Source: Methanohalophilus levihalophilus (GTDB taxonomy: Archaea; Halobacteriota; Methanosarcinia; Methanosarcinales; Methanosarcinaceae). Taken from it: 64,000 nt of DNA. Positions 13,953 through 49,978 of the stretch are shown here, one piece after another. A program made the translations under genes and the position numbers. How positions within the stretch are numbered: position 1 is the stretch's first letter; the number at the start of each line of letters is the position of its first letter. The notes beneath the pieces were generated by a model. It made no database searches, was not told the DNA's origin, and was given only the letters and a program-made list of their open reading frames with translations. Where the stretch lies: assembly GCF_017874375.1 (NCBI RefSeq), contig NZ_JAGGLK010000001.1, forward strand, positions 434,001-498,000, written 5' to 3'.

Positions 13953-15860
13953 TTAGCTTTTATCTAAAGCAACTGGAGGCTTCTCCGGTAATTCAAAAGT
14001 AAATTTAGTTCCCTTCCTCAATTCGCTTTCCACATGTATTTGTCCGCCGTGGAGTTCCACAAGCCTTTTAACAATTGCAAGTCCGAGGCCTGTCCCTCCA
14101 TATGCCCTTTTTGTGGAACTGTCTGTCTGGTAAAACCTGTCAAAAATGGAGTTAATTTTTTCCGGCTCAATCCCGATACCGGTATCTTCAACTGAAATCT
14201 GGATCATAGTACTGATTTTTTTTGCACGAATTGTAATTCGGCCGTTACTATGGGTGAATTTCACTGCATTACTAATCAGGTTGTTGAGGATTTGTATGCA
14301 TTTATTCAGATCAGCAGTAATGAGGGTAACTTCCGGATCAATTTCCATGTTTATGGATATGTCCTTGTTTTCTGCAAGTGGAGATGATAATTCAGTTGCA
14401 TGTGTCAGGAGATTTGGAACTAAAAACTCCTCATAGACCAGATCTATCTTTCCGGATTCAATTTTTGCAATATCGAGTATATCGTTGATGAGGAATAACA
14501 AATGTCTTCCATTTTCGATAACATTTACAACGTATTGTTTTTGTTTATCGTTAAGGTCTCCGAATGCTTCTTTTAAAAGGACATCAGAAAAACCAATTAT
14601 TGAGTTTAGTGGGGTCTTAAACTCGTGGCTCATATTAGCCAGGAATTCATCTTTTGCAAGACTGGCTTCCTCAGCTTTATTCTTTGCTTTGATAAGTTCC
14701 AGATCCGCCTTTTTTCTCTCGGTTATATCGGTTGTGTTACCAAAAGCCTGCAACTTTCCGTTTTTTCCAACAGAGATTGAGCCTTCGGATTGGACCCAGA
14801 TAATTTCTTTATTTGGTTTAATGAGCCGGTATTCAAGATTAATTTCCTGCCCGACATTTTCCATTGCATGTGTAAAAGTCTGGTAGACACGGGACAAATC
14901 ATCCGGATGCACGTAGCTGAACAATTTGTTCCAGTCATCACCGATTGTTTTCGGCTCGACTTCCAGAATTCGATCTGCTACCGGGGATATAAAAGTGTTT
15001 ACAAAATTTCCATCCTCGTTAAAATCTGTTTTCCAGACGATGCTCGGTATGGACGTTACTACCTTTTTGTAGCTTTGTTCACTTTCCCGGATTCTGTCTT
15101 CCATAACCCGCTTTTCGGAAATTTCTGTAGCCACTTCAAAGCGGACTTTTCGACCGTCATGCCAATCAATTACCCCATCGGTGCAACGATACCATTTTTT
15201 CTTCAATTCGTTGTAGGAGTTCCAAACGTAAGGTTTTCCTGAAGTATCATCAAAAATAATATCGTTAGTACAAAATGGGCAAGGTGATTTACGATTCTGT
15301 ATCACCGAATAACATTTTCGTCCTACTGCATTTCCGAAATTGTTTATCATGGCAGTGTTCATGAATAGAATTTCATAGGAGTCAGGATCTGAAACATAAA
15401 CGATATCATCCAAATCATTGAAAATAGCTGCAAGTTGCTCTATTTTTTGGTCAGGACAGCTAGTTGGCCCTTCGTGTTTTTGTACACTAACCTTCCATGA
15501 ACCAAAAAGCTCATCTTTGCTTTTGAATAAGGAAAAGCCAACCTGAGCAGGAATTGTTAAACCATCTTTCCTTAATATTTCCTATTTTGTGCATCTTGAA
15601 GGGGTGGATGAAGTTGAATATGAATTGCTTCTTTGCAACGTTTGGAGGCAAGTAGAATATTTTTCAGGAATCAGAATGGCAATCTCTTTGTTATATATTT
15701 CATCCTCAGAGTACTGGAAAACATCCTCAGCCTTTTTATTCCAGAAAATAACCTTATTTTTCGAATTGGTAAGAATAATTGCCTCATCCGAGGATTGAAC
15801 AAAAGAGTGAAAGATTTCCATATTGTCTGCTTGACAACATACATTTGCTTGTTTTTCCAT
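13953..15860 (-). CDS. PAS histidine kinase with an in-frame TAG (candidate pyrrolysine) codon
   Basis: Read through the TAG at 15582-15584, this is a 635-aa sensor kinase with the TAG at residue 93. Order: PAS1 (from MEIFHSFVQSSDEAI), interrupted by TAG and resuming EILRKDGLTIPAQVGFS; PAS2 with a cysteine motif (GRKCYSV, SPCPFC); PAS3 (SIVWKTDFNEDG to TTDITERKK); HisKA H-box MSHEFKTPLNSIIGF; then the ATPase domain with N-box NLISNAVKF, DTGIGIE and GTGLGLAIV. No transmembrane helix is seen. The TAG splits PAS1 with no frameshift, and the number of residues between IPEKY and RKDG is normal for a PAS domain. If TAG were a stop, the product would be 92 aa of half a PAS. ATG 15860 is chosen; a TTG 10 codons upstream is an alternative. 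Confidence 0.8.
15582..15584 (-). other. In-frame TAG codon in histidine kinase (recoded candidate)
   Basis: Codon order on the minus strand is TGC ACA AAA TAG GAA ATA TTA AGG. The frame is open on both sides for the whole kinase and both halves belong to one PAS domain. Confidence 0.75.
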
Positions 15861-32491: not shown

Positions 32492-32665
32492 GTAAGCCTC
32501 CAGATAATTGATAGTCTGATCAAATAATGTGAATTTCCGGGAATACGCTTCCAGATATCAACGGTTAACGAACATAAAACAATAAATACTTAAGCCCTTC
32601 CATTTTGAAAAGTGGGAGTGGGATGAAAAAATCTGCCCTTTCAGCAATCAAGCAAACCCTATTCC

Positions 32666-34261
32666 TTATTTGGAAATTGGAATTGTAAAGCTAAATGTGC
32701 TGCCTCTGCCAGGCTCACTTTGTACAGATATGTTTCCTCCATGCATTTCTATCAGATTTTTAACAAGGGTAAGGCCTAATCCCGTTCCTTCCGCTTTGGT
32801 GGAAGAAGGCACTCCTGCCTGCTCAAAGGGCTCAAAAATCCTTTTTTGTTCTTCTTCGGGGATTCCTATGCCATTATCTGAAACTGATATCCGGAGGAGA
32901 CTATTCAGGGCTCTTGCTCTTATTTCAATATATCCTCCAGTATTTGTGAATTTTACTGCATTGCTAAGGAGGTTGTATAACACCTGTCTGAGTTTTTTCT
33001 TATCTGCTAGAACAAATGGCAGGGAATTATCGAAGTTGATCTTGACATCAAGTTTTTTCTCAGTTGCAAGAGGATAAATCAGTTGGTTGGCCTCTGAGAA
33101 AACATCGTTAATATTGACAGGAATCAGGTCAAGTTTAAGCTTACCAGCACTTATTTTGGAAATATCCAGGAGATCATTGACCAGGGCAAGAAGGTGTTTT
33201 CCACTTCTTGAAATATTTTTAATATACTTATGTTGCTGATCATTAAGAGAACCAAACTTTTCATCATCAAGTATCTGGGAAAAACCGATTACTGAATTCA
33301 GAGGCGTGCGAAGCTCATGGCTCATTTCAGCAATAAACTCACTCTTCGCTTTATTTGCTGCATGTTCTCTGATTAATGTTTCAGAAAGGAGTTGTTCAGA
33401 TTCTTTTCTTTTTGTTATGTCTTCTACTACTCCTTTAATTTTGGATAAGGAACCGTTGTTATCGAACTCAACAACTTTTCCTTTGATGGAATGCCATTTT
33501 ATTTCACCATTTTCTAATGTTATCCTATAGTCGAGTTGGAATACGTCCTACTCTTTTTTAATACAGTTTTCAATGGCCGTTGTAAGAAATTCCCTGTCAT
33601 CTGGATGAATCTGATTTATGTAGAGCTCGTAAGGCATTGGGTTGGTTGAAAAGCGAATTTCATCTTTTATTCCCAACAACCTTTCCAGGGATTCATCGCA
33701 ACAAATTTCCCATTCCGGGAGTTTGAGTTCCCACCAGCAGAAGTTTCCAATTTTCATTGCATCCTGTATATGCAAATGGTAATCCATCTGATTCCTTTTG
33801 GGTGGGTTTAAATCTTCCAGATGATTTAAGAACGATTCCAACAAATTTACATTAAAAGAAGTTGGTAGATCAGGCTTTTTGCTGAAAAGCTGGACATATA
33901 GTTTTTCGCCACTTTGGAAAAACACGCTATAATCAAAAAACAATAGTAAATTGGTGGTATCGCCGGAAAGATATTCGCTGTCTTCATATTCTATTTTTGC
34001 AACAATACTGTGGCTTTCCGGAAAAACAGCTATTATTCCAGAGGCAAGATCTGGTAAAAAAGCATCAATTTCGCCATTATGTTCTAAAAATTTGTTTACT
34101 AGGGTATAAAATGAATTAACAGCACAAATTATGTTTTCTTCATTATCTTTCCCCGAAGTCAGGTTATTCTGTACAAATGCACTTTTACTAAATGAAGAAA
34201 GAAAGGATAGTGACTTTATATCCGGAAATATTCCTTTTTCTTTAGGGTTCCCCACCACCAT
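32666..34261 (-). CDS. PAS histidine kinase with an in-frame TAG (candidate pyrrolysine) codon
   Basis: Read through TAG at 33548-33550, this is a 531-aa kinase with the TAG at residue 238. An N-terminal GAF-like region (to about residue 165) is followed by a PAS_3-type domain ([16 protein letters not shown] to [13 protein letters not shown]), the HisKA H-box [15 protein letters not shown] and the ATPase domain ([26 protein letters not shown]). The TAG falls inside the PAS domain: [29 protein letters not shown]. Downstream there is no frameshift or other stop. If TAG terminated, the product would be a sensor without kinase, and the kinase half would have no start of its own at its natural beginning. 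TATA-like TAATATATT lies just upstream of 34300. Confidence 0.8.
33548..33550 (-). other. In-frame TAG codon in second histidine kinase (recoded candidate)
   Basis: On the minus strand the codons read ATT AAA AAA GAG TAG GAC GTA TTC CAA. Both sides are in the same frame and align to one PAS domain, with the TAG where such domains usually have a polar residue between helix and strand. Confidence 0.75.
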
Positions 34262-34487
34262 TTTAACCACGTTCACAGAACTTAGTTCGATTAATCTCAA
34301 ATATATTATGAAATCATGCCATTAATAATGTTTTTGTTATTTTTAGCAAGAGAAAATTTCTTTAGCATAATAGTTCATTCGGGAAATCTATGTATATTCT
34401 TCCGACATTTAATTTCTATATGCCAAGGAAAATGAATTTATCTATTTACATTTATGGTGGAAATTGATTTCGTAACAGGTGCAATTT

Positions 34488-34700
34488 ATGGACAAAAAGA
34501 AAAATAATGGTCTCATTTTGATGGCGGGAGCTCTTGTAACTATTATGTTTTATTGCTCTTATTGGTTGTATGAATATTTGAAGATAAATCCAAGTATAGA
34601 TGAATACGTTGCAAGTCCTGAACTAAATTTTTTCGTAATTGTTATCGGAACGCTTATTATTTGGATTCCTTTAATTTACTATCTAACTCCCAAAGAGTAA
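34488..34700 (+). CDS. Small two-helix membrane protein
   Basis: 70 residues: basic N-terminus KKKNNG, transmembrane helix (LILMAGALVTIMFYCSYWLY), polar loop, second helix (FFVIVIGTLIIWIPLIYYL). No family recognised. It is flanked by a TATA-rich upstream region and directly followed by a stem-loop at 34701-34722, so it looks like a complete single-gene unit. Confidence 0.55.
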   Translation: MDKKKNNGLILMAGALVTIMFYCSYWLYEYLKINPSIDEYVASPELNFFVIVIGTLIIWIPLIYYLTPKE

Positions 34701-34722
34701 AGGCGAAGTTTAAACTTTGCCT
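34701..34722 (+). terminator. Perfect-stem hairpin after the small membrane protein
   Basis: AGGCGAAGTTT and AAACTTTGCCT are self-complementary (one G-T pair) and start at the base after the stop codon. Probably a terminator, though the following T-tract is weak. Confidence 0.5.
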
Positions 34723-34810
34723 CACTTTGCACATGGATCTTTTCTATGGGCTTTACAAACTCAAATACTTTCACTTATTTTTAGAAACATAATATGTAGT
34801 TTCATTATGT

Positions 34811-34826
34811 ATTCATTATAATGAAT
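34811..34826. repeat. 16-base perfect palindrome
   Basis: ATTCATTATAATGAAT is perfectly self-complementary, in the AT-rich gap before the tRNA gene. Could be an operator or chance in AT-rich sequence; no adjacent promoter is clear. Confidence 0.3.
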
Positions 34827-34995
34827 ATAATTTAAAATAATCTATGTGTATAAAATGTCAAATCAAATTTAGTCATAATTATAGATGACAATATCTGCTT
34901 TTTTTCAATTTATTCATAAAGAAATTTAAGCCTCAAAAACTGAAGTCAATCTAATCATTCATCAATGACTAAAATTATGGCAATTAAGAAAAAGG

Positions 34996-35068
34996 TAGCC
35001 CGGCACGGATTCGAACCGAGGTTGCGGGATCCAGAGTCCTGCATGATTGACCACTACACTACCGGGCT
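34996..35068 (-). tRNA. tRNA-Gln, anticodon CTG
   Basis: 73-base cloverleaf on the minus strand: acceptor AGCCCGG/CCGGGCT with discriminator A, D-loop AGTGGTCAAT, anticodon loop CTCTGGA (anticodon CTG), T-loop TTCGAAT. Two stem mismatches are seen: A-C in the anticodon stem (28-42) and T-T in the T stem (50-64). No CCA is encoded. A TATA-like element TTTTATATA lies on the minus strand at about 35101-35109, at the expected distance upstream. The gene is probably functional; the mismatches deserve a check. Confidence 0.85.
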
Positions 35069-35119
35069 GCAATGAAGTGTACTCTACATTGAATAATTTC
35101 TATATAAAATTATCGCCAA

Positions 35120-35521
35120 TTAGTCTTCTTCTGAGCCCTGATTCAGGACTGCAGTGAGCCACCAATTGGCCATATCTATGAGATCCTTGCTAAATTGGCT
35201 GGATAAGTGGTACTCGCCTTTTTTATTCGTGATAAGGCCGGCACCTAACAGTTTATTCCTCATTGCATAAAAAGAGGAGCGACCGACGTCAAGCTCGTCC
35301 ATTACGACTTGCCATTCACTTATCTTCAGCGGGTTGCCACTGTGCTGTCTTTCCTCAATCAAATCAAGAAACTTTTGACCTCTTGTAGCAGTAGCATCTT
35401 CCTGAAAAATACGCCTCATAAGGCTATAATAGGGATCTCTGGAACGGGTTATTCGTGAAGCAGCATCTGAGCGTACAACTATGGTGGTAGAGGTACGCGG
35501 AGCATCTTTTACAGCAACCAT
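35120..35521 (-). CDS. Winged-helix-like regulatory protein, family not identified
   Basis: 133 aa. The central part has helix-turn-helix-like segments: SEWQVVMDELDVGRSSFYAMRNKLLGAGLI followed by TNKKGEYHLSS is a recognition helix plus wing, here split by a short linker. The N-terminus is basic and disordered. It lies 9 bases after a second HTH gene on the same strand and near tRNA-Gln. Probably a DNA-binding protein; target unknown. Confidence 0.6.
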   Translation of the reverse strand: MVAVKDAPRTSTTIVVRSDAASRITRSRDPYYSLMRRIFQEDATATRGQKFLDLIEERQHSGNPLKISEWQVVMDELDVGRSSFYAMRNKLLGAGLITNKKGEYHLSSQFSKDLIDMANWWLTAVLNQGSEED

Positions 35522-35530
35522 GAGAAAATC

Positions 35531-35863
35531 TCAGGCAGAAACCGGCTCTTTTGATGCCAATACATTTTGAATTAAATCGATATATTCTTCCTTAAGGGAA
35601 TATACGATTGGAGTCTTGTAGGATTCCTTATGGGAGCGAAGAATTCCAAGTCTTGAGTGTATGTAACCTACCATGGAGGCCACTGCACTGCGTGAAACTT
35701 CAAATTCTTTGCTGATGGCTCCGTGGAGTTCATCAACTGTGGACTGCTTTAAATTCAAAATAAGAGATAAAACGTGTCTACGCAACCCACTAACGTCAAG
35801 TTCAACAAATTTCTTAAGGCGCGCTTTTATCTTGGATCTTATTGATGTCATTGACGTGTCCAT
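35531..35863 (-). CDS. DUF2551-like winged-helix protein
   Basis: 110 aa resembling DUF2551 of Methanosarcinales. Segments HVLSLILNLKQSTVDELHG and FEVSRSAVASMVGYIHSRLG read as a winged-helix with recognition helix, followed by a beta wing (TPIVYSLKEEY). It starts an apparent two-gene operon with the next HTH gene and is divergent from the zinc-ribbon gene at 35978. Likely a transcription regulator. Confidence 0.65.
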   Translation of the reverse strand: MDTSMTSIRSKIKARLKKFVELDVSGLRRHVLSLILNLKQSTVDELHGAISKEFEVSRSAVASMVGYIHSRLGILRSHKESYKTPIVYSLKEEYIDLIQNVLASKEPVSA

Positions 35864-48509: not shown

Positions 48510-48565
48510 TCATTATATTTTGCAACAAAGCAAATTATTAGTATTTTAATTTTTAATTATAGTTG

Positions 48566-49978
48566 ATGAGTTCAGCTTCTGGAAGAATTGGTAAGTTGCT
48601 TAAACTTAGTTTTTTGATTTTTATCTTACTATGGGGAAGTAGTACAACAAATGCTTTAGAAAACCCAACCGAACTTAATTCGAATAATATCGTTTTCTTG
48701 ATAGTTGATGGTTTGGGAGCATCCTACATTTACCCTGAATACCAACCAAGGGCTCTTGATGACAGCATCCTGCAAAAACCCAACGTCAAAAATCTTTCAA
48801 TTATCTCATCTGAAAGTATCAGATTTTTAGATGTAAGCACTATCGCACTTTCCGGAAATTCAGGACACAACTCATTGATAACCGGAAATCTGAATGCAGA
48901 CGAAAAAATGGTTGCCTACCCGAATACGACTATTTATGATGTACTTCACAACCGTGGATATGTTGCAGTTGCTATAATGGAAAAAGGAGATTCTCCAGAG
49001 ATAATTGCGGAACAGGACATTGTTCTTCATGATACTACCAATTCAATTAATGACGTTAGTATGGAAGTAAAAACAAATAATCCGGATATAGTTCATCTTT
49101 CAGGAATTCGGAACATTCTTGAAACACATGCTGAAATTGCTCCTGAAGCTGTGGAAAATGAAAAAGAAGGTAGCATCAGCAGATACTATGCATACAATGA
49201 AATTGTTTTTGATGGTGCAGAAGATGTCATTCTGGAAATGGAAAAATCTGAAGTTCCCTATATCCTTACACTAAATGCAGGAGCTATTGACAATGCCGGA
49301 CATTACAGGGGAAATGAAGGATATGTGCAAACTATTGAACATCTGGATAAAATGATCCTTCCTCTTTATGAGCTCTGCAGAGACAATGGTATTATTCTTG
49401 TCATTACTTCTGACCACGGAATTGCATTTCCTGATCCTGACAGCAGGGGCGGCGTGCAGTCCGGAGATTACTTCGAAACAGCTGAAGTAAAAAGAATTCC
49501 TTTAATCATCTATTCTCCTGATCTTAAACCCCAAATCATAGAATACCCCGCTGATCAGCAAGATATCGCTCCCACAATGCTTAGTATACTTGATATTCCT
49601 GAAAATCCCCACTTTTGTGAAGGAAAGCGTTTTCACATAAAGGAATATGCAACACTCGGAATAACTACGGACACAACCAGCAGTATACGTGTTTTGAATG
49701 AAGGAAGAACCCTGTATTCAAGCAATTTAGGATTTAATCATAATTTCAGAAAACTGGAACTGGATACAAGCTACAGGCTTGTAATATTTGACATTCAAGG
49801 CTAGGTTCTTGAGGAAACGGATTTTACCCTAAGCAAGGATACGAAAATGCACTTTTCGTTTGAAGATACTGCGCCGGATATCGTTGGGAAAGAAAGGATT
49901 GATCATTTTGGATATGCATTAATTGCATTAATTAATTTGACAGGACTAGTGTTGATTTTTAGAATACTGAAAAGTTAA
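48566..49978 (+). CDS. Secreted alkaline-phosphatase-superfamily protein with in-frame TAG and C-terminal membrane anchor
   Basis: Read through TAG at 49802-49804, this is 470 aa with the TAG at residue 413. Signal peptide (LSFLIFILLWGSSTTNA), then a phosphatase/sulfatase fold: metal-binding VFLIVDGLGA, nucleophile region STIALSGNSGHNS, AGAIDNAGHYRG and ITSDHGIAF. After the TAG 57 residues follow (VLEETDFTLSKDTKMHFSF onward) ending in a transmembrane helix (YALIALINLTGLVLIF) and RILKS, then TAA. This is a plausible C-terminal anchor for an external enzyme. Stopping at TAG would leave a secreted, unanchored enzyme. ATG 48566 (TTG 48563 is the alternative). Confidence 0.78.
49802..49804 (+). 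other. In-frame TAG codon in phosphatase-like gene (recoded candidate)
   Basis: The codons read GAC ATT CAA GGC TAG GTT CTT GAG GAA, after which the frame stays open for 57 codons up to TAA and encodes a membrane anchor. Confidence 0.75.

Follow-up and report, generated by a model that had tools for sequence, protein, structure and literature searches.

The kinase gene and its in-frame TAG

The window analyzed here is a 64,000-nucleotide stretch of the Methanohalophilus levihalophilus genome, and coordinates given without a locus label refer to it. A sensor histidine kinase gene occupies 32666..34261 on the minus strand, within a locus (32492-35863) where it lies between sufCB and a tRNA-Gln(CTG) gene (34994-35068). 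The reading frame is open on the minus strand from 34300, with its first ATG at 34261 and a TAA at 32666, and it comprises 531 codons if a TAG at codon 238 (33548..33550, minus strand; context AAA GAG TAG GAC GTA) is taken as sense. This TAG is the sole in-frame stop, and the frame contains neither a second stop nor a frameshift. Three Pfam domains were identified on the minus strand, each with a match exceeding its cut-off: a PAS_3 domain (PF08447, E = 7.6e-14; residues 186-279, 33425..33706), a HisKA dimerisation/phosphoacceptor domain (PF00512, E = 2.3e-22; residues 305-373, 33143..33349) and a HATPase_c catalytic domain (PF02518, E = 8e-34; residues 420-529, 32675..33004). The phospho-accepting histidine (H) motif and the N, G1, F and G2 motifs, read directly from the translation, are intact. 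The N-terminal region of ~160 residues (33782..34261, minus strand) has no convincing family match and, given its position, may be sensory; codon scores over the N-terminal 250 codons are weak (0.4 bits). The next possible start past the TAG is the ATG at 33323..33325 on the minus strand, encoding the Met of MSHELRTPL; it lies 75 codons downstream, within HisKA at the H-box.

An earlier note, made from the same DNA, had placed the TAG between the residues IENCIKKE and a stretch of 10 further residues, inside a PAS domain and at its helix-to-strand junction, in a frame otherwise intact through the HisKA and ATPase motifs. The minus-strand reading reproduces those flanks, the open frame, domains and motifs agree with an otherwise intact kinase, and the PAS_3 match spans codon 238. 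The helix-strand loop assignment comes from the PAS_3 match together with a low-confidence structure model (mean pLDDT 46), which was used solely for the local helix-loop-strand arrangement. Alignment of homologous PAS domains places many different residues in the TAG column, including, in another kinase of the same genome (L112), a Tyr encoded by TAT, one base off TAG. Codon 238 falls in a variable helix-strand loop, consistent with neutral acquisition of the TAG.

No orthologue of the kinase was found in seven congeners, and a search of 60 genomes returned paralogue-level matches only; a single contig scan among named genomes likewise recovered only distant bacterial kinases. Upstream of sufC, a kinase is present in 0/7 congeners, which carry other genes there. 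The seven congeners differ greatly from the host genome in this interval, and the kinase region is possibly a lineage-specific insertion.

Pyrrolysine machinery and TAG usage in the host genome

The host genome (G000; 2.12 Mb in 5 contigs, 98.8% complete) carries tRNA-Pyl(CUA), PylS, PylB, PylC and PylD (pylTSBCD) in one cluster, as well as MtmB-like and MttB genes interrupted by in-frame TAG. Its single aRF1 has both the NIKS and the GGQ motif. An unusual release factor was considered and rejected: the second eRF1-domain match is a 350-codon ORF that, by motif scan, lacks both NIKS and GGQ and is probably Pelota.

We surveyed TAG usage in an 864 kb sample, about 41% of the host genome. Among 703 coding-like ORFs, TAA is the terminator of 362 and TGA of 329; only 12 end in TAG, although TAG accounts for 17% of all stop triplets. 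Most of the 12 TAG-ending ORFs run on past the TAG as recognisable protein, including one that encodes an HD-domain protein; by eye, thrombospondin-type repeats follow the TAG in one ORF and a PEF-type C-terminal anchor follows it in another. A minority of TAGs, such as that of pylB, look like true ends. TAG ends are also rare in the nearest congener (G002, 3/121), in G003 (2/115) and in G009, from a related genus (1/66). Interior TAGs also occur in CcmF-like, HD-domain and surface-protein genes of the host genome. A count of "joined" ORFs for TAA and TGA was tried as a control and proved unusable, as it fuses genuine neighbouring genes.

Within the window, TAG interrupts two further frames. 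A second kinase (13953..15860, minus strand) has a single in-frame TAG at 15584-15582, and a sulfatase/phosphodiesterase-like ORF (48563..49978, plus strand) has one at 49802-49804, followed by 57 codons that end, by eye, in a likely C-terminal membrane helix. Elsewhere, a 532-codon frame (L048:5440-7038, G000:C3) contains two in-frame TAGs and has no Pfam match; its C-terminal part resembles a tyrosine recombinase by eye.

Sense TAG in trpF and ppsA

Two metabolic genes decide whether TAG works as a sense codon in this genome. The sole trpF of the host genome (L050:13171-13848; G000:C3:523171-523848), which is followed by TrpE, contains an in-frame TAG at codon 60. The trpF of the nearest congener (L127) is 83% identical and has TAG at the same codon 60. 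Downstream of the TAG, comparison of the two genes gives dN 0.11 and dS 1.35, and trpF is under purifying selection on either side of the TAG. Because purifying selection has preserved this TAG as a sense codon in a biosynthetic gene present once in the genome, UAG must be usefully decoded in this lineage. In the gene for PEP synthase, ppsA (L058:15208-17616; G000:C1:615208-617616), codon 451 is an in-frame TAG; when this is read through, the protein reaches 1179 bits where the cut-off is 740, and the PEP synthases of congeners, ~85% identical, have Thr in the codon 451 column. TAG is thus a working sense codon in the host genome, and the TAG of trpF is stronger evidence for this than the TAG of the kinase.

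TAG in histidine kinases of the host genome

A survey of 26 kinase frames in the host genome (15.6 thousand codons) identified seven interior TAGs: four kinases hold six of them, and the seventh lies in a kinase that has a frameshift as well. An in-frame TAA or TGA splits none of the kinases surveyed. With a random TAG share of 0.33, the probability that all seven nonsense events would be TAG by chance is ~4e-4; leaving out the two window kinases, it is ~4e-3 (0.328 to the 5th power). The earlier note had argued that TAG-only interruption of the window kinases would be improbable without recoding, and the seven interior TAGs bear this out. With seven interior TAGs and no TAA or TGA, the kinase TAG is unlikely to be random nonsense.

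One of the surveyed frames encodes a 911-codon kinase (L113:1853-4588; G000:C1, about 120352-123087) with TAG at codons 438, 449 and 753 and neither TAA nor TGA. A full-length relative in G001, 48% identical, aligns through all three TAGs, with Q, W and D at those positions. In G009, two related kinases (L116:2091-3425 and L117:1908-4541) have a common TAG site in HATPase_c, just before the G1 box.

The leading alternative is that the kinase gene is decaying, such that the TAG is a nonsense mutation in a kinase that is no longer needed, perhaps still read through to yield an unselected product. The lack of an orthologue in the congeners fits this explanation, as do at least three further kinases in the host genome (L112, L073:9209-11083 and L114) that look frameshifted, either as real pseudogenes or through assembly indels. 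TAG is also enriched in kinases relative to other genes (p = 2e-4 including the window and 0.03 excluding it, with TAG-bearing genes classified by hand), as expected of relaxed genes, and relaxed constraint together with low expression may account for the enrichment. A decaying gene, however, would not be expected to retain 531 codons free of any other stop or frameshift with all catalytic motifs intact, nor would decay explain why TAA and TGA split none of the surveyed kinases. We therefore regard decay as unlikely, although it is the best placed of the competing explanations.

Does pyrrolysine supply set kinase levels?

The earlier note had also proposed that pyrrolysine availability could set how much kinase is made. 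Under such conditional decoding, scarcity of charged tRNA-Pyl would lead to termination at codon 238 and a fragment lacking the kinase domains, while plentiful charged tRNA would give the full kinase. There are precedents for the ingredients of this model: a substrate-dependent meaning of UAG has been reported for Acetohalobium (PMC8211752), and in M. acetivorans a reporter containing UAG yielded 20-30% full-length product (PMC2933860). In the genome studied here, however, the sole trpF and ppsA also contain TAG and would be throttled along with the kinase. Since pyrrolysine dosing would restrict tryptophan synthesis equally, pyrrolysine should be present whenever tryptophan is made. The distribution of TAGs within kinases also argues against regulation, because six of the seven lie in sensor domains where ~62% would be expected, which is not a significant excess (p = 0.19), and TAGs occur in or near the catalytic domains of other kinases, including one host-genome kinase in which the TAG follows HisKA. 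The suggestion that TAG was placed in the sensing domain as a means of pyrrolysine control is thus unsupported.

A local RNA element was not evident at the TAG either. Directly downstream of the kinase UAG, no distinct PYLIS-like stable structure was found (z = -1.35 from the TAG on); a z of -2.69 was obtained only when three bases upstream of the TAG were added, and it was not distinct from other sliding windows. A PYLIS-like element was rejected on the basis of this sliding-window control and of a cross-gene control, in which such a signal was not general among the other TAG genes. We consider conditional decoding improbable, well behind gene decay. Similarly improbable is the broader proposal that kinases of this lineage gathered UAGs because a pyrrolysine supply that varies with substrate is useful for adjusting kinase levels and so couples methylamine metabolism to signalling. 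Of the earlier proposal, then, pyrrolysine recoding is supported, with a complete pylTSBCD set and TAG used as sense genome-wide, but the tuning of kinase levels is not.

A sequencing or assembly error at 33548-33550 is very improbable. The genome is a draft in 5 contigs and local errors might explain the frameshifted kinases, but those suspected errors are indels rather than substitutions, and TAG recurs in many genes, one of which has it in common with a second species. Least probable of all is that the UAG is a true stop ending an N-terminal sensory protein, with the kinase half made separately, as in-frame starts exist downstream but the nearest lies inside HisKA, there is no start between the TAG and the HisKA H-box from which a separate kinase gene could begin, and either half would consist of incomplete domains.

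A predicted full-length kinase with pyrrolysine

Our data suggest, with a probability of roughly 0.8, that the gene encodes a full-length PAS-HisKA-HATPase_c kinase in which codon 238 is a sense UAG of neutral origin, read as pyrrolysine. The open frame and its domains, the presence of the pyl cassette, the scarcity of TAG as a terminator and the selected sense TAG of single-copy trpF are direct observations; from them we infer pyrrolysine at codon 238, a full-length kinase in cells and neutrality. In this model, pyrrolysine would be made by PylBCD and charged by PylS onto tRNA-Pyl(CUA), and it would be inserted at the UAG constitutively, with Pyl-tRNA-Pyl competing with the single aRF1 as at other UAGs of the genome. 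The predicted product is a kinase of 531 residues whose pyrrolysine would lie in the loop joining F-helix to G-strand in the PAS domain. Drift at this variable loop position is the most likely origin of the TAG, as a new UAG would be nearly harmless in the host genome. The model is weakened by the lack of an orthologue in the seven congeners, by the frameshifted appearance of other kinases, which indicates that decay or indel errors do occur, and by the weak codon score of the N-terminal part.

Histidine kinases containing UAG have been known in the Methanosarcinaceae since 2013, and the window kinase adds another. A screen published in that year described a histidine-kinase cluster (cluster 16) whose members in Methanosarcina acetivorans, Methanohalophilus mahii and M. 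barkeri carry an in-frame UAG, and its authors proposed some selection, since the UAG is common to three species (PMC3639795). Compared by description, the window kinase resembles cluster 16 in that a methanogen encoding the Pyl system has a sensory histidine kinase with an in-frame UAG, predicted from sequence; unlike that shared UAG, the one described here belongs to a gene without an orthologue in seven congeners. A parallel for neutral origin is Thg1 (tRNA-His guanylyltransferase) of M. acetivorans, which gained a UAG that is translated as pyrrolysine and is non-essential for activity, a case of neutral acquisition (PMC2933860). Both are non-methyltransferase genes with an acquired UAG, but pyrrolysine was established by experiment in Thg1 and is predicted in the window kinase. 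In the methyltransferases MtmB, MtbB and MttB, UAG is decoded as pyrrolysine by the machinery that would also serve the kinase; there, pyrrolysine is catalytic and conserved, whereas in the kinase it would occupy a variable loop.

Use of a stop codon as sense reaches well beyond the methylamine enzymes in this lineage and includes the sole gene for one step of tryptophan synthesis. Genes containing TAG will be split or labelled as pseudogenes by standard gene callers, so that kinase counts and gene maps will be wrong wherever TAG occurs. The TAG of trpF also makes constitutive pyrrolysine decoding checkable, in that a strain without pyl genes should require tryptophan.

A 2025 report is said to describe an archaeal Pyl code in which all TAG codons are read as pyrrolysine. 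The host genome resembles such a code in that terminal TAG is nearly absent and TAG occurs within housekeeping genes, and it differs in that a few TAGs still look like gene ends. One of these is in pylB (L042:11243-12298, G000:C2), where the terminal TAG lies one base before the pylC start, and readthrough would extend PylB by 39 residues, in a stretch that overlaps pylC. In other species, too, pylB is known to end in TAG (PMC2933860), and in this arrangement the terminal TAG might provide feedback on pylC translation.
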